Of a stretch of DNA of 64,000 nt, positions 33,058-42,062 are shown one piece after another; positions within the stretch are counted from its first letter, which is position 1; every line of letters starts with the position of its first letter. The translations under genes were made by a program, and so were the position numbers. A model generated the notes under the pieces. The model searched no databases and had not been told where the DNA came from. It saw nothing but the letters and a program-made list of their open reading frames with translations. The stretch is from Bacteroidetes bacterium HGW-Bacteroidetes-1 (GTDB lineage Bacteria; Bacteroidota; Bacteroidia; Bacteroidales; F082), in assembly GCA_002842755.1 (NCBI GenBank), contig PHDU01000006.1:1-64000 (forward strand), read 5' to 3'.

Positions 33058-33657
33058 TTGGAACTCAAAAAACATCACCGGTTCTTGCTTAGCAATATGC
33101 TTAGTGATTGTTGTCTGAAACTCCTTCTTCTGGAGCTTGAACGATTGGATGTTGAGGTTATTAAAGCAAAACTTGGTGATGTTACCCTTTCTTTTAATCC
33201 CGATAAAACGGATGTAAAAAAAATTGAACTACTCTTTTCCAATCTGGGTTTTGGTATCATCCAGGATAAAGAAAAAGCATTGGTTGAAGAAATAAAGCGA
33301 GTAGTAGTTGAACTGGTGCATTACACTACTTTTAATGCGATGGTGCGCAACTCTGATTTTATCGTCAGCCGTTTCGACAAGAGCTATCAGCATCTTACAA
33401 CACTGTTTACACGCCATGAACATATTACACTCGAAAAATACATCATCCTGCAGCGTATTGAAAAAGTAAAAGATTTGTTGCAGGCTGATGAATTGAGTCT
33501 GAGTGAAATAGCGTATATGATGGGATACAGCAGTGTACAGTATCTTTCAACACAATTCAAGCAGATTACAGGTTACTCCGTAACGGAATACAAGTTACTA
33601 CCAGAAAAGGAGAGACAAGGAATAAGGCTTGGAGATAATATTGCCACTACAGAATAG
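33058..33657 (+). CDS. AraC family transcriptional regulator with HMA-like N-terminus
   Basis: A 199-residue regulator. The C-terminal part (about 120-190) is an AraC-type pair of helix-turn-helix motifs: LQRIEKVKDLLQADELSLSEIAYMMGYSS and VQYLSTQFKQITGYSVTEYK. The N-terminal 60 residues (CCLKLLLLELERLDVEVIKAKLGDVTLSF, GFGIIQ) have the beta-alpha-beta pattern of a heavy-metal-associated-like ferredoxin fold, a combination seen in other Bacteroidota AraC proteins; the CxxC metal motif itself is absent. The start is a TTG, chosen because the promoter element ends just upstream and no ATG occurs before the domain. It faces the PqqD/ATP-grasp run 98 bp downstream and may control it, which is inference from position only. 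Confidence 0.82.
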   Translation: MELKKHHRFLLSNMLSDCCLKLLLLELERLDVEVIKAKLGDVTLSFNPDKTDVKKIELLFSNLGFGIIQDKEKALVEEIKRVVVELVHYTTFNAMVRNSDFIVSRFDKSYQHLTTLFTRHEHITLEKYIILQRIEKVKDLLQADELSLSEIAYMMGYSSVQYLSTQFKQITGYSVTEYKLLPEKERQGIRLGDNIATTE

Positions 33658-33755: not shown

Positions 33756-34007
33756 ATGAAAATTAAAAATAATATAGCGGTTAGTGACAATGGATTTGTA
33801 TTCAACCCGGGTTCGGGTGAGTCTTTCACCGTCAACCCTGTTGGGCTGGTGATGCTAAACATGCTTCGAAAAGGTTTGTCACAAAGTAAGATCGTTGCAA
33901 CCATCATAGAAGAATACAATATAGACGCATCCTCGGTTGAACGTGATCTTAATGATTTTAAAGAAATGATGCGCCAATACCGTCTGATGCAGCACGACGA
34001 TGAATAA
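33756..34007 (+). CDS. PqqD-like (RRE) peptide-binding protein
   Basis: An 83-residue protein with the winged-helix PqqD pattern: a beta start (NNIAVSDNGFVFNPGSGESFTVNPVG), then LVMLNMLRKGLSQSKIVATIIEEYNID and a last helix with DVxxF-like spacing (VERDLNDFKEMMRQYRLM). PqqD-type domains (RREs) bind leader peptides of ribosomally made peptides and deliver them to modifying enzymes. It is not an acyl or peptidyl carrier protein: there is no DSL serine site. It overlaps the ATP-grasp gene by 8 bp, so both are likely translated together. The obvious question is what it binds, as no separate precursor peptide gene is visible; the N-terminus of the decarboxylase two genes on is a candidate. Confidence 0.8.
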   Translation: MKIKNNIAVSDNGFVFNPGSGESFTVNPVGLVMLNMLRKGLSQSKIVATIIEEYNIDASSVERDLNDFKEMMRQYRLMQHDDE

Positions 34008-35046
34008 GCCCCTACTTACAATTGGCGTTACTGGATTAAATGCTATTGATAGTCCAGGCCCTGGCGTGGCAGTAATAAGAGGCCTCAGAGAAGCAACTTC
34101 ATTTGATTGCCGTATAATTGGTTTGTCATACGAATCGCTCGAACCAGGAATATATATGCATGATATTGTCGAAAAAACATATCAGATTCCCTATCCTTCA
34201 GCAGGAATGGAAGTGCTGATGAGCCGCCTGAAGTACATTCATGAGCAGGAGCATCTTGATGTGATTATTCCAAATTTTGATGCAGAATTGTATTCTTTTA
34301 TAAAACTTTCAGATGTTTTGAAAAATATGGGCATCCATACTTTTCTTCCAACAATGGAGCAGTTTGAAGAGCGTCACAAAGTAAACCTGAATGCATTTGG
34401 AAAGAAGTATAACATTCATGTTCCCAGAAGTAAATCAGTTTATTCTGTCAATGAAGTGCAGCAGCTTGAAAAGGATTATGACTGGCCTTTGGTTGTAAAG
34501 GGGAAGTATTATGATGCAATGCTTGCCTATAATTTTGATCAGGTAAAATCTGCCTTCAATAAAATTTCTGCCAAATGGGGCCTGCCTATTATCATCCAGG
34601 AATTCATTCATGGGACAGAATACAATGTTACCGGATTGGGAGACGGTTCAGGTAATACCATTGCAGCGGTACCAATGCGTAAACAATATATTACTGATAA
34701 AGGTAAGGCATGGGGGGGGATTTCCATTGCCGATAAAGAGATTCTTGCACTTACTGACCATTTTCTTCATTCAACAAAATGGTACGGAGGCTTTGAACTC
34801 GAGCTCATGAAAGATAAAAACGGACGTTATTATCTTTTAGAAATCAATCCACGTATGCCTGCATGGATTTATCTTGCAGTAGGGGTTGGACAAAACATTC
34901 CGGAAGCACTCACACGACTCGCTATGGGCTGGTCAACCGATGCTTTCACATCCTATGAAGTTGGAAAGATGTTCATCAGATACGCATGGGATATGATTGT
35001 TGATTTGAAAGAATTTGAGCAGATTTCTACACATGGAGAATTATAA
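34000..35046 (+). CDS. ATP-grasp ligase
   Basis: A 348-residue ATP-grasp enzyme. It has an N-terminal pre-ATP-grasp fold (TIGVTGLNAIDSPGPGVAVIRGL; IIPNFDAE), the ATP-binding lysine K167 in PLVVKGKY, the adenine-contacting IIIQEFIHGTEYNV (E201) and the Mg-binding EINPRM (E281, N283, R285). The family activates a carboxylate as acyl-phosphate and joins it to an amine or other nucleophile; the carbamoyl-phosphate-synthase/carboxylate-amine-ligase-like subgroup is the best fit. The substrate is unknown. It lies between the PqqD-like protein (8-bp overlap) and a PLP decarboxylase (21-bp gap). A comparable pairing of an ATP-grasp ligase with a type III decarboxylase acts on a carrier-bound amino acid in butirosin biosynthesis (BtrJ/BtrK), which is an analogy only. 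Confidence 0.83.
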   Translation: MNKPLLTIGVTGLNAIDSPGPGVAVIRGLREATSFDCRIIGLSYESLEPGIYMHDIVEKTYQIPYPSAGMEVLMSRLKYIHEQEHLDVIIPNFDAELYSFIKLSDVLKNMGIHTFLPTMEQFEERHKVNLNAFGKKYNIHVPRSKSVYSVNEVQQLEKDYDWPLVVKGKYYDAMLAYNFDQVKSAFNKISAKWGLPIIIQEFIHGTEYNVTGLGDGSGNTIAAVPMRKQYITDKGKAWGGISIADKEILALTDHFLHSTKWYGGFELELMKDKNGRYYLLEINPRMPAWIYLAVGVGQNIPEALTRLAMGWSTDAFTSYEVGKMFIRYAWDMIVDLKEFEQISTHGEL

Positions 35047-35067
35047 AAAATATAAAATATTGATAAG

Positions 35068-36429
35068 ATGACTGTTAAAAGAACTTATGAACGTCCGGTT
35101 ATAAAGAAGCTGGAAAGCAACATGCCAAACAAATTTGGTATGCGCACCATCTACGAACCTGTGACACATCTGGAAGAAAACGCAGTAAAAGATTTGATTT
35201 CAGAGTATGGTTCACCTTTGTTTGTTATTTCTGAAACCAAGATCAGAAAGAATTATAGTGCTTCGCGTCAAGCTTTTGAAACCAGGTATCCCCGTGTTCA
35301 GTTTGCGTGGAGTTATAAAACGAATTATCTGGATGCTATATGTAATATTTATCATCAGGAAGGATCCTGGGCTGAAGTGGTTTCTGGCTTTGAATATGAT
35401 AAAGCCATTCGTAACGGGGTAAACGGAAGCAAGATCATTTTTAATGGCCCCGACAAATCAGAGGAAGATTTGCGAAAAGCTGTCACCAATAATTCATTGA
35501 TTCACATCGACCATCTGGATGAGCTGTATCTATTGCAGGATATTGCAAGAGCAACGAAACAACGTCCTAAAGTGGCCATCCGAGTTAATATGGACACAGG
35601 CGTTTTTCCAATGTGGGATCGGTTTGGTTTCAATTACGAAAACGGACAGGCCTGGGACGCATTGAATAAAATTATGTTTTCAGGTCAGATGGATCTTGTT
35701 GGATTGCACACACACATCGGCACTTTTATGCTTGCTCCCTCTGCCTATGCTGTCGCCGCATCAAAGCTGGCTCATCTTGCGCAAAGTGTGCTGACAAAGT
35801 ACAATCATGAAATCAAATACATTGACATGGGTGGTGGATTTGCCTCAAAAAACACCCTAAAAGGATCATATCTTCCAGGAAGCGATATTAGTCCCTCTAT
35901 TGATGATTTTGCTGAAGCAATTACCTCTGCTCTTATGAACAGCGATTACCGGCCTAAAACACCGCCATTGCTGATCATCGAATCTGGTCGGGTACTCATT
36001 GATGATGCAGCCTGGCTACTGGGTACAGTACTTGCCAATAAGCGTCTTTCTGATGGCAGAAGAAGTGTTATTTTAGATGTTGGGGTCAACATTTTGTTTA
36101 CTGCTTTCTGGTATGATCATAAAATAACTCCAGCACAGGCATTTACCTCTTACACTGAAGATACAGCCCTTTACGGCCCTCTCTGTATGAATATTGATGT
36201 GGTAAGGGAAAACATTAATATGCCGATGCTCAACAAGGGCGACCAATTGGTGGTACACCATGTGGGCGCTTACAATATGACCCAGTGGATGCAGTTCATT
36301 ACCCTCAGACCCAAAGTGGTGCTGATAGATGAAAAATTTAAAGTTCATGTGATCAGAAACAATGAAACGCTTTCCATTCTAACAGATTTGGAGGCAGTTC
36401 CTTCGCATCTGGTCGATTTTGAGCTATGA
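35068..36429 (+). CDS. PLP fold-type III decarboxylase (DAP/ornithine decarboxylase family) with leader-like N-terminus
   Basis: A 453-residue enzyme of the LysA/ornithine decarboxylase family. Catalytic features are all there: PLP lysine K84 (AWSYKTNYL, in place of YAxKAN), HTHIGTF (213-219), the glycine loop GGGF (254-257), ESGRVL (304-309), Cys372 in GPLCMNID with the following Asp, and GAY (399-401). It should therefore be active on an amino acid, but the substrate is not defined. Before the usual family start (DLISEYGSPLFV, about residue 42) there are some 40 extra residues with the pattern Y7-x2-P10-x-I12-x2-L15, resembling the YxxPxL leader motif bound by RRE domains in lasso-peptide systems. 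A PqqD-like RRE is encoded two genes upstream. The stop overlaps the next start (ATGA). Confidence 0.85.
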   Translation: MTVKRTYERPVIKKLESNMPNKFGMRTIYEPVTHLEENAVKDLISEYGSPLFVISETKIRKNYSASRQAFETRYPRVQFAWSYKTNYLDAICNIYHQEGSWAEVVSGFEYDKAIRNGVNGSKIIFNGPDKSEEDLRKAVTNNSLIHIDHLDELYLLQDIARATKQRPKVAIRVNMDTGVFPMWDRFGFNYENGQAWDALNKIMFSGQMDLVGLHTHIGTFMLAPSAYAVAASKLAHLAQSVLTKYNHEIKYIDMGGGFASKNTLKGSYLPGSDISPSIDDFAEAITSALMNSDYRPKTPPLLIIESGRVLIDDAAWLLGTVLANKRLSDGRRSVILDVGVNILFTAFWYDHKITPAQAFTSYTEDTALYGPLCMNIDVVRENINMPMLNKGDQLVVHHVGAYNMTQWMQFITLRPKVVLIDEKFKVHVIRNNETLSILTDLEAVPSHLVDFEL

Positions 36430-38621
36430 TAGCTGCAAGGCTGAAATATATTTTCCCATACTTCTGGCAAAGCCTGAGTAATAGTTATACCCAGATTTTC
36501 TTTTCTAAAAATAAAGTGCTGGGGTTACTGTTGATTTTTGTTTCTATGTTCGATCTCAACGCTGGCTTCATTGGATTGCTTTCAGTAATTACTTCTAACG
36601 TAGCCGCCTATCTTATAGGACTTAACAGGCAAAAAGTGATTGATGGCCTTTACGGATTCAATGCCTTACTGGTGGGGTTAGGATTGGGAATATATTATCA
36701 AATCAGCTTACCCTTTCTTGTCATTGTGATTTTTGTTTCGTTGCTTACCTTACTGCTGACCAATACCCTTGAGGGAGTGCTTTACAAATATGGTTTACCT
36801 TATTTAAGCCTTCCATTCTTATTTGCGATCTGGATTGCAATGCTGAGCACCAGGTACTTTACACAACTCGAAATCAGTCAGCGGGGTATTTATATGCTCA
36901 ATGAAATGTATCTGCTGGGCGGTTTCCCCATGGTGAAAGTTTACGATTGGTTTTATACTCTATCCTGGCCTGAGGCTATTAAGATTTATTTTCGTGCTCT
37001 TGGCGCTATTTTTTTTCAATACCATCTTTTTGCCGGTCTGGTTATTGCCATCGGTCTGCTTTATTGGTCGAGGCTTGCTTTTCTGTATTCGGTGGTAGGA
37101 TTCTCTTCGGCCTGGGTTTTTTATAATTTTATTGGCTCAGGATTGAATGATCTAAGCTACACCTACATTGGTTTTAATTATATTCTAACGGCAATTGCAG
37201 TTGGAGCTTTTTTTGTAATCCCTTCTGCTATCTCTTTTGTTTGGGTTATGATATCCATTCCTTTGGTTGCGTTTCTAATAGCTTCCGGCAATGCTGTACT
37301 TGGTGGATATCAGCTGGCAATTTTTTCGTTGCCTTTCAATCTGGTAGTGATAATGTTTCTTTATCTTTTCCGCCTTCGCGAACGCTTTCATGACAAGCCA
37401 TCATTGGTTTATCTTCAGCAATACAGTCCTGAGAAAAACCTCTACAGTTTTCTTGTAAACAAAAAGAGACTACCCGGATTGGACAAAATACAGATAAAAA
37501 TGCCTTTTATGGGAAAATGGAAGGTGACCCAGGGTATAGAAGGCACCCATACGCATAAGGATGTTTGGAAATTTGCCTGGGATTTTGAAATGACTGACGA
37601 TGAGGGCATAACATTTCGTGAAAAAGGGCTAAAAGTTGAGGACTATTATTGCTTTAATAAGCCTGTTGTTGCCCCGGCAGATGGTTATATAAGTGAAATA
37701 ATGGATGGGATAGAAGACAATCTCATCGGTGATGCCAATTTAAAGCATAATTGGGGAAACTCTGTTGTAATGAGCCATGCCCTGGGATTGTTTTCCCAAA
37801 TGAGCCACCTTAAACGGGGAAGTATTCTTGTAAAAAGTGGTCAATTTGTTCGTAAGGGTGAGCAAGTAGCCAGTTGTGGCAATTCGGGCCGGTCACCATA
37901 TCCACATTTGCATTTCCAGTTTCAGGCAGCAGGAGAAGTAGGAGCAGCAACGCTTAACTATCCATTTTCAGCTTTTCTGACCCACAACGATGAGACTGTT
38001 TTTTTTTCAGCATCGCAGCCTGTTCTCAACGATTTTGTATCCAATAATCAGATTGTTGATCTGTTGGATCTTGCTTTGCACTTTGTGCCTGGACAGATGC
38101 TTCATTTTTCAGTTGATGACGAAAAGGAAAGTTATCATCTTTCCTGGAAAATTGAAACGGATATTTATAACAATACTTTTATTCAATGCGGTGAATCAGG
38201 TGCTAAAGCATGGTTTATCCGACAACCTGACATCTTCTATTTTACACATTATGAAGGAGATAAGAAGAGTCTTTTGTTCGACTTCTATCTTGGAGCCTAT
38301 CAACTAATAACGGGTTTTGTGCCTGGACTCAAGATGAAAGAACACATTACACTTGCCTTGTATCCTAACAAATTTGTACTTGCAATTCAGGATATCATTG
38401 CTCCATTTTATCGTTTTTTAAATGCAGAATATTGTCTTGAACATACACGTTTCATCAATGATCTGAGCACCCCCATCATCGAAATGTATGCTGAAGTTAC
38501 CTTCTCTATGTTTGGCCGCCTCAACGAAAAACGTTCCTTTGAAATGAAATTCAGCGAAAATCATATGCAGTCATTCATCATTCGTCGCGGCGATACAAAA
38601 ATTGTTTTAAACCGTGAGTAA
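36426..38621 (+). CDS. Urea-transporter domain fused to M23 metallopeptidase
   Basis: A 731-residue inner-membrane protein. Residues about 15-320 match the urea transporter (UT) family, with about ten membrane helices and the internally repeated loop: GLYGFNALLVGLGLG (74-88) and YIGFNYILTAIAVG (247-260). A short linker leads to an M23/LytM-like peptidase domain (about 360-505) with THTHKDVWKFAWDF, APADGYI, GNSVVMSH and the zinc motif HLHFQF (H494, H496). The remaining 225 residues are beta-rich and not recognised. M23 enzymes cut peptidoglycan peptides, so the C-terminal part is expected in the periplasm. The fusion of a small-solute channel to a peptidoglycan hydrolase is unusual. It overlaps genes on both sides (4 bp and 8 bp) and thus belongs to the PqqD/ATP-grasp/decarboxylase operon. 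Confidence 0.85.
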   Translation: MIAARLKYIFPYFWQSLSNSYTQIFFSKNKVLGLLLIFVSMFDLNAGFIGLLSVITSNVAAYLIGLNRQKVIDGLYGFNALLVGLGLGIYYQISLPFLVIVIFVSLLTLLLTNTLEGVLYKYGLPYLSLPFLFAIWIAMLSTRYFTQLEISQRGIYMLNEMYLLGGFPMVKVYDWFYTLSWPEAIKIYFRALGAIFFQYHLFAGLVIAIGLLYWSRLAFLYSVVGFSSAWVFYNFIGSGLNDLSYTYIGFNYILTAIAVGAFFVIPSAISFVWVMISIPLVAFLIASGNAVLGGYQLAIFSLPFNLVVIMFLYLFRLRERFHDKPSLVYLQQYSPEKNLYSFLVNKKRLPGLDKIQIKMPFMGKWKVTQGIEGTHTHKDVWKFAWDFEMTDDEGITFREKGLKVEDYYCFNKPVVAPADGYISEIMDGIEDNLIGDANLKHNWGNSVVMSHALGLFSQMSHLKRGSILVKSGQFVRKGEQVASCGNSGRSPYPHLHFQFQAAGEVGAATLNYPFSAFLTHNDETVFFSASQPVLNDFVSNNQIVDLLDLALHFVPGQMLHFSVDDEKESYHLSWKIETDIYNNTFIQCGESGAKAWFIRQPDIFYFTHYEGDKKSLLFDFYLGAYQLITGFVPGLKMKEHITLALYPNKFVLAIQDIIAPFYRFLNAEYCLEHTRFINDLSTPIIEMYAEVTFSMFGRLNEKRSFEMKFSENHMQSFIIRRGDTKIVLNRE

Positions 38622-40098
38622 TAGAAATTGGTCTTTTATTGCAATGATAATAGTAATGCAATTCATGATGTTCATGGAAAGCGCTGCACAGAATTTACCC
38701 GAAACAGTAAATTATGATAGCCTGACTTACCAGCTTTATATGAAAGGGTCATGGAAAGAGTTGCTCAGGACTGGTAATAGAATGCCTGCCGAAGGGATGG
38801 ATTATTATTATTTGCGCATGCGAACAGGTATTGCAGCAATGCAGGTGAAGGACTATGCCCAGGCAGAGAAGCACTTCCGAAAAGCGCTCTCTTTTAATCC
38901 AATGGATAAAAACGCAGTTCTTTTTCTGGCACAAACACTTGCAGCAAACAATAAAAATGTTGAATCGGGTTCACTTTATAGGAGTATGTCAACACAGAGC
39001 CGCAAAGAATCAGGACTAAAAGAGGGCTGGGTGCCCATTTCTGCACACGTTGATATAGGAGCTGTTTTCCGGAATAAAAAAAACGGACTTGGCTTTGATG
39101 ATCTTACCGGATCTGCAGGCGTTTACGGTCAGGAACGGATTTATAAAAATAATTTGTTTTACGATGCTGGCCTTTATTTTAAAACAAACCCTCAATGGCT
39201 CTTTTATGCCGGTTTTCAGTCTATTGGAATTGATGTTACCGATCGCTTCGCTTTCATTGAGTCATCATTAACAAACGATTCCATTATAGTTTCTGATGCT
39301 GGAAAAGCATATTATTATTCTGTTGATACAATCCATAAAACGAATAATTATGAGCATCAGCTGAAGCAGCAATCAGCGTATTTTCAAGCTCAATGGAGCT
39401 CATCAACAAAGTGGAGTCTGGTTGCTGGTCTTCACGTTCTTAGTGTGAAGAGTGATTTTACTTTGACTGAGGAAGAGAGGATTTCAATTAATGATACTGC
39501 ATTCTATAATAATAATACGGGGCAGGTTGAGCTGTTTAATACATATTTGGAGCAGGTTAGCTTTTATAATGTGCCCTGGAAAACTTACGACATAAATGTA
39601 TCACTAAACGGAAAGTTACATTTTGGAAAATTTACAGCATTGGCAGGTATAAGTACTGGCAGCATTAATGATTCATCCGTATTTCAAGCCAATACAGGAT
39701 TTTTGTATATGCCTTTTGGTAACCTGAATACTTTCAATCAGACTGAGTTTTTTGCTTTACACACAAATGGGCAGGTCAGTTGGGCTGCTAAAACTCGTTT
39801 TGGAATACAACCTTTAAAATCGACCTGGCTCGAGGCAGAAATTTTCGCTGGAGCGTTAAATAATCTCAACGATCAATATGGATATATTATTTACAATAAT
39901 CCTGATAAATTAAATTTGCGTTTTGAAGCCACACTTTCAAAAGCTTTAACAGATAGAGTAATAATCCAGATTCGTTATCGTTATATGGAGTCCGAAAGAC
40001 AATTCAGTCACCTTGATGATAGTGGAAACGATCTTATATTAGGAAGTTATCACATTAATTCACAAACAATTATTGGAGGAATAAAATGGATATTTTAA
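38614..40098 (+). CDS. TPR-containing outer-membrane beta-barrel protein
   Basis: A 494-residue envelope protein. It has a hydrophobic signal segment (WSFIAMIIVMQFMMFMESAAQ), then two or three TPR-like helices (about 30-125; DYAQAEKHFRKALSFNPMDKNAV is the clearest) and about 330 residues of alternating strands rich in aromatics, ending in W-I-F, which suggests a barrel. The start is GTG at 38614, overlapping the transporter-peptidase gene by 8 bp; no ATG gives the signal peptide. Its layout recalls YaiO-like TPR barrel proteins. It overlaps the next TPR gene by 13 bp, so it is in the same operon and may form an outer-membrane exit or docking site for the product of this cluster (inference). 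Confidence 0.75.
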   Translation: MSNRNWSFIAMIIVMQFMMFMESAAQNLPETVNYDSLTYQLYMKGSWKELLRTGNRMPAEGMDYYYLRMRTGIAAMQVKDYAQAEKHFRKALSFNPMDKNAVLFLAQTLAANNKNVESGSLYRSMSTQSRKESGLKEGWVPISAHVDIGAVFRNKKNGLGFDDLTGSAGVYGQERIYKNNLFYDAGLYFKTNPQWLFYAGFQSIGIDVTDRFAFIESSLTNDSIIVSDAGKAYYYSVDTIHKTNNYEHQLKQQSAYFQAQWSSSTKWSLVAGLHVLSVKSDFTLTEEERISINDTAFYNNNTGQVELFNTYLEQVSFYNVPWKTYDINVSLNGKLHFGKFTALAGISTGSINDSSVFQANTGFLYMPFGNLNTFNQTEFFALHTNGQVSWAAKTRFGIQPLKSTWLEAEIFAGALNNLNDQYGYIIYNNPDKLNLRFEATLSKALTDRVIIQIRYRYMESERQFSHLDDSGNDLILGSYHINSQTIIGGIKWIF

Positions 40099-40703
40099 AA
40101 ACAATAAGTATTATTCTTGTCTTTTTTTTGACGCAAACTATGCAGGCGCAGGAGTTTGAAAAACAACTGAAGGCTTTTGAGGACTCATATGCTGCTGAAA
40201 TTAAGGGTGAGCATTCTACTGCAATACAACTGATGACAGGTATTTATAAGGCAGATAGTTATGAGATAAACATTCGCTTAGGATGGTTAAATTATGTTTC
40301 AGGAAAGTTTTCTGATGCACTTCCATATTATCAGAAAAGTATTGAGCTAATGCCGGTGTCAATTGAGGCCAGACTAGGATATGTGAACCCTGCTGCCGCA
40401 CTTGGAAATTGGGCTCAGGTCGAAAAACAGTATCAGGAAATATTGAAAATCGACCCTATGAACACAACTGCTAACTATCGAATGGGTCTTATAACCTATG
40501 GTAGAGAAGATTATGCTTCAGCTCTGAAGTATTTCAGTAAGGTACTGAACCTTTATCCTTTTGATTATGACACGGTCATTATGGTGGCTTGGACACAATT
40601 GAAATCAGGAAAATTACGTGAAGCTAAGATCATGTTTCAAAAGGCCCTCCTCATTAAACCAGGCGACAGCAGCGCCATCGAAGGATTAGGGATGATCAGG
40701 TGA
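40086..40703 (+). CDS. Periplasmic TPR protein
   Basis: A 205-residue protein with a signal peptide (MDILKTISIILVFFLTQTMQAQ) and then about five tandem TPR units (for example GKFSDALPYYQKSIELMP, AQVEKQYQEILKIDPMNTTA, DYASALKYFSKVLNLYP, LREAKIMFQKALLIKPGDSS). TPR proteins act as scaffolds for protein partners; no enzyme domain is present. The gene overlaps the preceding TPR-barrel gene by 13 bp and is the last of the overlapping run that begins with the PqqD-like gene. The two TPR proteins probably work together in the envelope. Confidence 0.8.
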   Translation: MDILKTISIILVFFLTQTMQAQEFEKQLKAFEDSYAAEIKGEHSTAIQLMTGIYKADSYEINIRLGWLNYVSGKFSDALPYYQKSIELMPVSIEARLGYVNPAAALGNWAQVEKQYQEILKIDPMNTTANYRMGLITYGREDYASALKYFSKVLNLYPFDYDTVIMVAWTQLKSGKLREAKIMFQKALLIKPGDSSAIEGLGMIR

Positions 40704-40750
40704 GATTTGTGATAAAAGCCGGATTCAGGTATTGCTTGCGAATCAATGCC

Positions 40751-40758
40751 TACTTTTG
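40751..40758 (+). promoter_or_regulatory. -7 promoter element of the amidase gene
   Basis: TACTTTTG matches TAnnTTTG. It lies downstream of the first in-frame start codon (40746), so translation must begin at one of the later ATGs (40779, 40824 or 40830). Confidence 0.55.
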
Positions 40759-40823
40759 CAAACTTATCTAATCCCATTATGATACAGTCTGGTTTTCTTG
40801 ATTTTTTTACGAAGTCGATCCTA

Positions 40824-42062
40824 ATGGGCATGCAATTTCTATATTCAATTTTGGTTTTCTTCCTTCTTTCGTTTTCAACACTTTTTGCACAAAACACCCA
40901 AAGGATAATTGTTGCACAAACACGAGACGCATTAATTGGTTTTGAGAAACCGGTGAATGCGATTGTGATTAAAGCAAAAATAGAAGCTTTTTCACAACTG
41001 AGGCTTGGTTATGGTGATGTTACTTTACAACCTTTAATTGACGATCATGTTGAGCCTACCGATGGCCTGTATCAGAGCAACCTTATTTTTTTTGATGAAA
41101 CAAAATCAGAAATTCGATTAAGCGGATTAATACAGAGTGTTCCAGTTGAACTGATTCTGATTCACGTCCCTCCCTGTGAAAATGCGACTTCAGAACTGAG
41201 CCTTCGTAACGATTGTGAATTGCCTGAAATGATAAGCCAGGAAATCTGGCGTGTAGGCCTTTCTGCTCCCGATTATGAACGTATTAAGACAGAAATTAAA
41301 AATATTATTCTTCATCACTCTGCTACATCCAATAATATCACGGATTTTTATGGGCTGGTGCGAAGTTTTTATATCTCTCATACCCAGGTAAACGGTTGGT
41401 CAGATATCGGCTACAATTATCTTATTGCACCTGATGGAACCATCTTTGCCGGTCGCGATCCAGGTTTGATGATGGAACAGGATGAAGTGATGGGAGCCCA
41501 TTTTTGCGCTTCCAATAACGGAACGCTTGGTATATGCATGATCGGAACTTTCATGAATGCATTACCGACAGAGGAGGCTCTATTATCCCTCAACAAGCTA
41601 CTGGTTTGGAAAACAGCTAAAGATTCGTTATCACCGTTTGAAGTAAATCCTCATCCTCTAAACCCACAGTTGAGTGTAATTTCAGGACACCGTGATGGTT
41701 GTGCAACTTTGTGCCCGGGTGATAGCTTATATAAACATATTCACCCAGTTAGAGAAGCATGCAATCATGGACTCGAAAATTGTGGGGTTTATTTGTTTGA
41801 GAATGAAAACAATGCCAGTATAATGCCAACACTCTTTCCTAATCCCACTAACATTGATAATTTTCAAATCTGCTCTGCCGAAATTCAAGGTGAAAGTAAA
41901 ATTTTAATTTCCGATATTGAGGGGCGAATGGTCTATTCATCAGTATATAAATCTGACCACCAATGCATTGATATAAATCATGTTCTTCCCCAAGGTTTAT
42001 ATTTTGTGCACCTTATTACACACAAACAATATTTTGTTTTCAAGTTAATACGTTCACTTTAA
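40824..42062 (+). CDS. N-acetylmuramoyl-L-alanine amidase (PGRP type) with T9SS type A sorting domain
   Basis: A 412-residue secreted enzyme that should cut the bond between muramic acid and L-Ala in peptidoglycan. ATG 40824 gives a compact signal peptide (MGMQFLYSILVFFLLSFSTLFAQ); 40779 is possible, while the longer frame from 40746 starts inside the promoter. The amidase_2/PGRP domain has the zinc His in IILHHSAT, YNYLIAPDGTIFAGR, and the second His and the Cys ligand in GHRDGCATLCPGD. The last 75 residues are a type A sorting domain (FPNPTNIDNFQI, LPQGLYFVHLI), so it is exported across the outer membrane and probably acts outside the cell. It follows the TPR genes after a gap with its own promoter; a linked role with the M23 fusion protein is plausible. 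Confidence 0.88.
   Translation: MGMQFLYSILVFFLLSFSTLFAQNTQRIIVAQTRDALIGFEKPVNAIVIKAKIEAFSQLRLGYGDVTLQPLIDDHVEPTDGLYQSNLIFFDETKSEIRLSGLIQSVPVELILIHVPPCENATSELSLRNDCELPEMISQEIWRVGLSAPDYERIKTEIKNIILHHSATSNNITDFYGLVRSFYISHTQVNGWSDIGYNYLIAPDGTIFAGRDPGLMMEQDEVMGAHFCASNNGTLGICMIGTFMNALPTEEALLSLNKLLVWKTAKDSLSPFEVNPHPLNPQLSVISGHRDGCATLCPGDSLYKHIHPVREACNHGLENCGVYLFENENNASIMPTLFPNPTNIDNFQICSAEIQGESKILISDIEGRMVYSSVYKSDHQCIDINHVLPQGLYFVHLITHKQYFVFKLIRSL

Follow-up and report, generated by a model that had tools for sequence, protein, structure and literature searches.

A PqqD-like RRE protein and a leader-like decarboxylase arm in a conserved Bacteroidota operon: a candidate enzyme-docking pair

RiPP recognition elements (RREs), named after the ribosomally synthesised and post-translationally modified peptides (RiPPs), are small proteins that normally grip the leader end of a peptide destined to become a natural product. 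RREs serve as markers of RiPP clusters, with the ligand assumed to be the precursor peptide (passages of PMC7470986). The discrete RREs of lasso systems read the motif [Y/W]xxPx[L/V/I/F/A] (passages of PMC13381572), and the lasso leader carries Tyr at −17, Pro at −14, Leu at −12 and, at −2, a Thr that is conserved but replaced by Ile or Val in some, with Gly1 as the first core residue (passages of PMC10368454). TbiB1 has been solved together with its leader (5v1u, 5v1v). LppB grips the leader with two residues, Asn33 at the backbone of the Pro and Asp70 at the Tyr; complex formation was almost abolished by N33A and reduced by D70A, and in PbaB1 the G42N/Q79D substitutions strongly enhanced binding of a Tyr leader (all from passages of PMC13381572). 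Here we describe an operon in the first 64,000 nt (the window) of contig PHDU01000006.1, forward strand, from Bacteroidetes bacterium HGW-Bacteroidetes-1 (GCA_002842755.1). The operon encodes a PqqD-like RRE protein, an ATP-grasp ligase and a fold-type III pyridoxal phosphate (PLP) decarboxylase, and the decarboxylase, rather than a separate peptide, is most likely the ligand of the RRE.

The six open reading frames (ORFs) of the operon are all on the + strand and are separated by overlaps of 8, 4, 8 and 13 bp and a single 21-bp gap, exactly as set out in a preliminary description of this DNA made from the sequence alone. The pqqD-like gene (33756-34007, 83 aa) matches PF05402 at 39.9 bits (cut-off 23.4). 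It is overlapped by 8 bp by the ATP-grasp gene (34000-35046, 348 aa; PF15632 ATPgrasp_Ter 39.7 bits, cut-off 29.1). The decarboxylase gene (35068-36429, 453 aa) follows after the 21-bp gap and matches PF02784 Orn_Arg_deC_N (99.6 bits, cut-off 23.4) and PF00278. Both enzyme identities given in the preliminary description are thus upheld by Pfam. The remaining three genes encode a fusion of a urea transporter (UT) domain and an M23 peptidase-like domain (UT-M23), a probable outer-membrane barrel protein and a tetratricopeptide repeat (TPR) protein. That the genes form one operon was also supported: the order pqqD, ATP-grasp, decarboxylase, UT-M23 on the same strand was kept, beyond chance, in 112 of the 113 homologous loci that hold all four genes.

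A feature missed by the preliminary description is the N-terminal arm of the decarboxylase. The leader-like arm covers residues 7-24 (YERPVIKKLESNMPNKFG; 35086-35139, + strand), with Lys22 encoded at 35131-35133. Numbered on the lasso leader, Tyr7 falls at −17, Pro10 at −14, Ile12 at −12, Lys22 at −2 and Gly24 at +1, so that, by sequence, the likeness to a lasso-type leader extends as far as the first core residue, Lys taking the place of Thr. The pattern [YF]xxPx[ILV]x9Kx[GA] was found with invariant spacing in 191/191 decarboxylases, representing 141 distinct 21-mers. Some genomes are present twice under two handles (e.g. L026 and L161), and the distinct counts are 118 decarboxylases, 180 RRE-arm pairs and 141 arms. 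Among the 118 distinct decarboxylases, residue 7 was Tyr or Phe in 118, residue 8 Glu in 117, residue 10 Pro in 118, residue 12 Ile, Leu or Val in 118, residue 22 Lys in 118 and residue 24 Gly in 117. Mean entropy was 0.7 bits over residues 7-12 and 2.0 bits over residues 25-45 behind the arm; L059, an ORF joined across N, was excluded from this analysis. In the 118-sequence analysis an early [YF]ERP was absent from 11 sequences, namely L168 (an over-long ORF) and ten with EK, ES or TK in place of ER, and all 11 fit the wider arm pattern.

This N-terminal stretch has no aligned counterpart in solved relatives of the decarboxylase. None of 43 solved relatives aligned before residue 22, with FslC and the best LysA chains joining only at 35 or 42 (FslC at residue 35, behind the arm). 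An AlphaFold2 model of the decarboxylase of a homologous locus, L078, folded alone, had a pLDDT (predicted local distance difference test) of 84.8 and a predicted TM-score (pTM) of 0.86, with residues 7-25 and 265-271 below 50. The arm is conserved yet predicted to be unstructured, as expected for a docking peptide. When 21 genomes were searched with the arm peptide, 1 of 15 matches lay off the decarboxylase (G029:C120, E 0.8, in a 37-aa frame) and was taken as chance.

The nearest solved relatives of the PqqD-like protein by profile match are lasso RREs: TbiB1 (1e-12), TfuB1 (2.6e-8) and PbaB1 (1e-3). It is the only PF05402 match of its own genome at E≤0.1. By these profiles the protein is a true RRE relative, as had been proposed. 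For a structural view, the pqqD, ATP-grasp and decarboxylase genes of L078, which lie in frame, were read through their stops and folded as one chain. Secondary structure was formed in all three proteins, and the RRE block (pLDDT 60-87) ran as strands 14-16 and 23-25 followed by helices 28-38, 43-54 and 58-74, an order at most compatible with the RRE fold of a β-strand wing and three helices.

Both leader-contacting residues of LppB have counterparts here. Asn27 (33834-33836, + strand) is the equivalent of LppB Asn33, the residue on the backbone of the leader's Pro, and Asp64 (33945-33947, + strand) is the equivalent of LppB Asp70, which hydrogen-bonds the leader Tyr. They align with G60 and Q97 of chain 9x90_B, and in the gapless PbaB1 alignment these are the published PbaB1 G42 and Q79, by a single offset of 18. 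Residue 27 was Asn in 188/188 RREs and residue 64 was Asp in 174/188, with 13 of the remaining 14 paired with Phe arms. The pairs TbiB1/TbiA, FusB1/FusA and LppB/LppA of lasso and LPP systems have in common with this locus the RRE family, the LppB-type Asn/Asp, a YxxPx[LIV] ligand and conserved −2/+1 positions. They differ in that the ligand here would be the N-terminus of a 450-aa enzyme, with Lys for Thr at −2. A lasso precursor, a B2 peptidase and an Asn-synthetase-like cyclase were absent from the eight profile-scanned genes of the window; a precursor, B2 peptidase or lasso cyclase was likewise absent among recurrent neighbours across 72 loci and the window, as judged by recurrence and first residues and not by profile scan.

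The LppB contact predicts that an arm without the Tyr hydroxyl should be paired with an RRE without the Asp, and the observed pairs fit. In loci with a Tyr arm, RRE residue 64 was Asp in 174/175 and Asn in one (L177); in loci with a Phe arm it was Asp in 0/13, being Tyr in nine, Ser in three and His in one. The nine Tyr64 loci are L146, L147, L149, L152, L075, L077, L080, L095 and L172, and in these the hydroxyl looks, from the sequences, as if it had moved from the arm to the RRE. Column pairs between both proteins were ranked by mutual information with L059, L168 and 67 short loci (L181-L247, partial decarboxylases) excluded. Over 114 distinct rows, the pair D64-Tyr7 ranked first of 25,662 pairs in which both columns were variable by normalised mutual information (0.718, runner-up 0.384) and second of 37,599 after average product correction (APC). 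The co-variation of arm and RRE is well supported, as are the operon, the RRE identity and the arm.

Taken together, it is very probable that the ligand of the PqqD-like RRE is the N-terminal arm of the decarboxylase itself, built like a lasso-type leader. Arm binding would hold the decarboxylase and the RRE in one physical complex, most likely joined by the ATP-grasp ligase, the product of the gene that overlaps pqqD; a separate precursor peptide would then be unneeded. The reading as a whole, a non-canonical RRE locus in which the RRE docks the decarboxylase arm in a complex without a separate precursor, is on balance the one we favour, with somewhat better than even confidence.

The strongest alternative makes the arm a carrier of its own. 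The RRE would present Lys22 to the ATP-grasp enzyme, which would acylate its side chain, and the decarboxylase would then process the amino acid on its own arm, as on a tethered carrier domain. Lys22 is invariant (191/191) despite lying beyond the RRE-binding motif, whose last residue is 12. It occupies leader position −2, believed to be recognised jointly by RRE and peptidase in lasso systems (passages of PMC10368454). RRE residue 23 is Ser or Thr in 187/188, at a column where TbiB1, TfuB1 and PbaB1 have Tyr, which may correspond to Tyr33 of FusE (discussed in PMC10368454), and the structure of a relative, BtrK, is titled as a decarboxylase of a carrier-bound amino acid. Lys22 might serve as a contact to the RRE, to the ATP-grasp enzyme or to the body of the decarboxylase, and no candidate for an enzyme freeing the product from the arm was found. 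We regard this self-carrier model as unlikely, at about one chance in several.

Several observations weigh against docking of the arm by the RRE, or against the wider reading built on it. In the nearest solved RRE, TbiB1, the Asn27 column holds Asp rather than Asn. The pair V26-Q194, not D64-Tyr7, ranked first by APC-corrected mutual information. In the fused L078 model the arm stayed below pLDDT 50, formed no strand and did not dock; this is a weak test (pTM 0.52, 46 largely unpaired rows, a four-residue linker, a monomer model), and the model gives weak evidence against docking and no support for it. A quick tree of 120 rows, built from the ATP-grasp protein and the decarboxylase without its arm, gave only three Y/F and three D/non-D switches, all inside one 22-row clade. 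Two tag switches were forced by well supported branches, and a test on independent pairs was too small to reach significance. With so few switches in one clade, the Fisher p of 4e-19 is not phylogenetically corrected. The UT-M23 gene was absent downstream in L054, L069 and L072 despite more than 2.5 kb being available, so that the envelope part may have to be viewed apart from the rest.

Two of these points, the mere two to three switches and the fused model without docking, speak for a reading in which arm and RRE columns differ by clade, the match of Y/D and F/non-D is a phylogenetic coincidence of shared ancestry and the arm docks elsewhere, for example on the ATP-grasp enzyme. Against such a coincidence, the matched pair is a contact known beforehand from LppB and has the highest normalised mutual information in the matrix, and the Y/N pair of L177 and the three kinds of replacement (Tyr, Ser and His) suggest more than one step; shared ancestry alone is rated improbable. 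Slightly less probable still is an ordinary RiPP cluster, in which the RRE would serve an unlinked or unannotated precursor and the arm would be left over from a fusion with a precursor: a relic would not be expected to show the strong constraint seen on the arm, no neighbour family beyond the six genes and an AraC regulator occurred in more than 12 of 73 sources (ORFs of at least 60 aa, fetched flanks), and in the own genome the arm peptide is present in a single copy, on the decarboxylase only, with no separate peptide bearing this leader, in a search that did not cover short precursor ORFs without the motif or other short or unlinked peptides.

The preferred reading, docking of the arm by the RRE, centres on three genes whose linkage was followed across Bacteroidota. 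GTDB-species contigs were scanned with the ATP-grasp protein, giving 72 loci, by title mostly metagenome-assembled genomes (MAGs) of Bacteroidales or unplaced Bacteroidota. Also present were two Seonamhaeicola strains, three Lutibacter MAGs, one Flavobacterium MAG and one Rhodothermaceae MAG. In the 73 sources formed by these loci and the window, the decarboxylase was found in 72, pqqD in 71, UT-M23 in 64, the barrel-type gene in 55, the last TPR gene in 51 and the AraC regulator in 31, several of the missing genes being accounted for by contig ends. The decarboxylase was also sought in 395 genomes of the phylum, with at most four candidates scored per genome. This gave 34 matches at E≤1e-45, own genome included, and as the weakest stood at 9.3e-133 the family is discrete in that sample. 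In all 33 other phylum regions with the decarboxylase (fetched regions), pqqD, ATP-grasp and UT-M23 were present, with pqqD 1.9 kb away in L140 and UT-M23 split into two ORFs in L145; the last TPR gene was present in 30/33.

A class-level sample gave 75 matching genomes of 395. Leaving aside the own genome, four genomes fetched before and three whose matches were broken, 67 regions were fetched and all 67 contained pqqD, ATP-grasp and decarboxylase. In the set of the own genome and its relatives the UT-M23 fusion was found in 23/41 genomes; 20 of the 23 were fetched, and 18/20 regions held pqqD, ATP-grasp and decarboxylase, the contigs of L174 and L176 starting inside the locus. In L180 the UT-M23 gene lies on the opposite strand. 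The preliminary description had proposed that co-occurrence of the families be searched for across Bacteroidota, with scattered homologues counting against it; the families were found linked. The locus core is pqqD, ATP-grasp and decarboxylase.

The enzymes of this core were compared with two described systems. By sequence the closest solved relative of the decarboxylase is FslC (7kh2, 5.4e-60), the N-citrylornithine decarboxylase of rhizoferrin synthesis. The L078 decarboxylase model superposed on FslC with TM-scores of 0.79-0.81 normalised to the query and 0.87-0.88 to the target, at 29-30% identity. Against the FslC model of NCBIfam the decarboxylase scored 245 bits, below the 500-bit cut-off. 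A GPxCM motif is common to both enzymes, and GPLCMNID is invariant in 56 decarboxylase rows. The LysA structures 1twi and 2p3e have C-E in place of CM; C-E after G-P/G is presumably a substrate motif of LysA. Identity with LysA was rejected, since the decarboxylase scored 216 bits against an equivalog cut-off of 297.9 and lacks C-E. A different gene on another contig of the own genome exceeds this cut-off as lysA at 377 bits, which again argues that the operon decarboxylase is not LysA. Because GPxCM is as in FslC and not the C-E of LysA, an N-acylated amino acid is favoured over a free diamino acid as substrate.

ATP-grasp ligases act through an acyl-phosphate mechanism. The ATP-grasp protein here scored 79 bits in the PRK12767 group, below its cut-off of 390, and is distant from solved ligases (best 3.8e-4). 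Residues E266, E268 and E281INPR285 were conserved in at least 97% of 114 rows, and the ExE and EINPR elements are taken by us to be the metal site. In butirosin synthesis (BtrJ/BtrI/BtrK) an ATP-grasp enzyme, which we take to be BtrJ, is likewise paired with a fold-type III decarboxylase. The butirosin analogy of the preliminary description held in part: BtrK is a structural relative of the decarboxylase, but is farther from it than FslC. The operon differs from the butirosin system in that no acyl-carrier protein is found among its recurrent neighbours, the RRE and the arm being present instead. We infer that the ATP-grasp enzyme would couple an amino acid with a carboxylate via an acyl phosphate, and that the decarboxylase would remove the α-carboxylate of the N-acylated amino acid. 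This N-acyl amino acid chemistry is offered tentatively, as a possible course rather than a probable one.

The transporter-peptidase fusion of the preliminary description was found and could be assigned more narrowly. The gene (36426-38621, + strand, 731 aa) overlaps the decarboxylase gene by 4 bp, and its protein has UT at residues 17-314 and M23 at residues 411-503 by Pfam. The UT domain (36474-37367, + strand; PF03253 184.6 bits, cut-off 25) is specifically a UT-family channel domain and matches dvUT (3k3f) at 3.2e-19; it scores 107 bits on TIGR03441, short of the equivalog cut-off of 274.6. It is like dvUT but fused to the M23 domain. Two Gln of dvUT stand in FQ(N/D)N stretches; here Ser lies opposite the first, and the second is kept as Q198. 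The likeness to dvUT hints at a small neutral solute, and a small neutral product may cross the inner membrane through the UT channel. The M23 domain, with its conserved His/Asp set, is encoded at 37554-37934 (+ strand; PF01551 55.2 bits, cut-off 28.7). H377, D386, H461, H494 and H496 were present in at least 97% of 102 rows and are, by analogy, presumably metal ligands.

The preliminary description had called the last two genes TPR proteins, which held for the second of them. The fifth gene (38614-40098, + strand, 494 aa, 8-bp overlap) encodes a protein with weak TPR matches (best 24.1 bits, below the model cut-off of 35.2) and, by eye, a probable outer-membrane β-barrel. The last gene (40086-40703, + strand, 205 aa, 13-bp overlap) encodes a TPR protein (TPR_2 65.2 bits, cut-off 27) with a signal-like start, as judged by eye. 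The UT-linked M23 domain and the TPR and barrel proteins may couple the product to the cell wall or outer membrane. A homologue of the barrel-type gene above 50 bits was found in 87/126 sources. In several of eight inspected loci without it, a ∼275-aa ORF with an outer-membrane look, by eye, lies beside the TPR gene.

In some loci diverse ORFs intervene between the decarboxylase and UT-M23 genes. By eye, these are ∼600-aa membrane sensor-like and ∼380-aa aminotransferase-like ORFs in L044 (12537-15485), L050, L091, L063 and L067, and a 191-aa sigma-factor-like ORF in L058 and L097 (12570-13145 in each). In L072 (6243-8576) multicopper-oxidase-like and thioredoxin-like ORFs, identified by eye, stand right after the decarboxylase, where the close relative L073 has UT-M23. 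In L054 (12437-21044) the decarboxylase is followed, in the usual place of UT-M23, by repeats with Cas2/Cas1/Cas9-like ORFs, again by eye. In 12 loci (e.g. L060:8934-9725) a ∼265-aa secreted-looking protein is encoded on the strand of the ATP-grasp gene, ∼1 kb upstream of it, and in L052 (842-1090) a second PqqD-like ORF lies ∼5.5 kb upstream of the operon's own.

Directly upstream of the operon in the window lies a gene for an AraC-type regulator (33058-33657, + strand, 199 aa; HTH_18 54.5 bits). It is accessory and not universal, a profile match above 50 bits being found in 43/126 sources. Its N-terminal half gave a weak match to the MerP model (18.3 bits, cut-off 110) and is perhaps like a heavy-metal-associated (HMA) domain, a hint at metal control. 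Downstream, at 40746-42062, is a gene for an amidase_2 protein with a type IX secretion system (T9SS) sorting tail. Scans for promoters (26, expected 22.0, sd 6.1) and terminators (5, expected 5.8, sd 2.7) were at chance level. A defence system was rejected, the six proteins having no PADLOC match at E≤1e-3.

Our searches of the open-access PMC literature, as judged by title, abstract start or passages, gave nothing on this locus or on an RRE bound to the leader-like N-terminus of an enzyme. If the amino-acid chemistry did run on Lys22, it would take place on a side chain of the enzyme for the next step, and a precursor peptide would be dispensed with. If the RRE docks the decarboxylase arm, leader recognition would serve a second purpose, as a code for docking enzymes, which would change the mining of RRE-bearing loci and suggest a portable docking tag. 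It would also open an uncharacterised pathway, present in 34/395 of the phylum genomes and 75/395 of the class genomes sampled.

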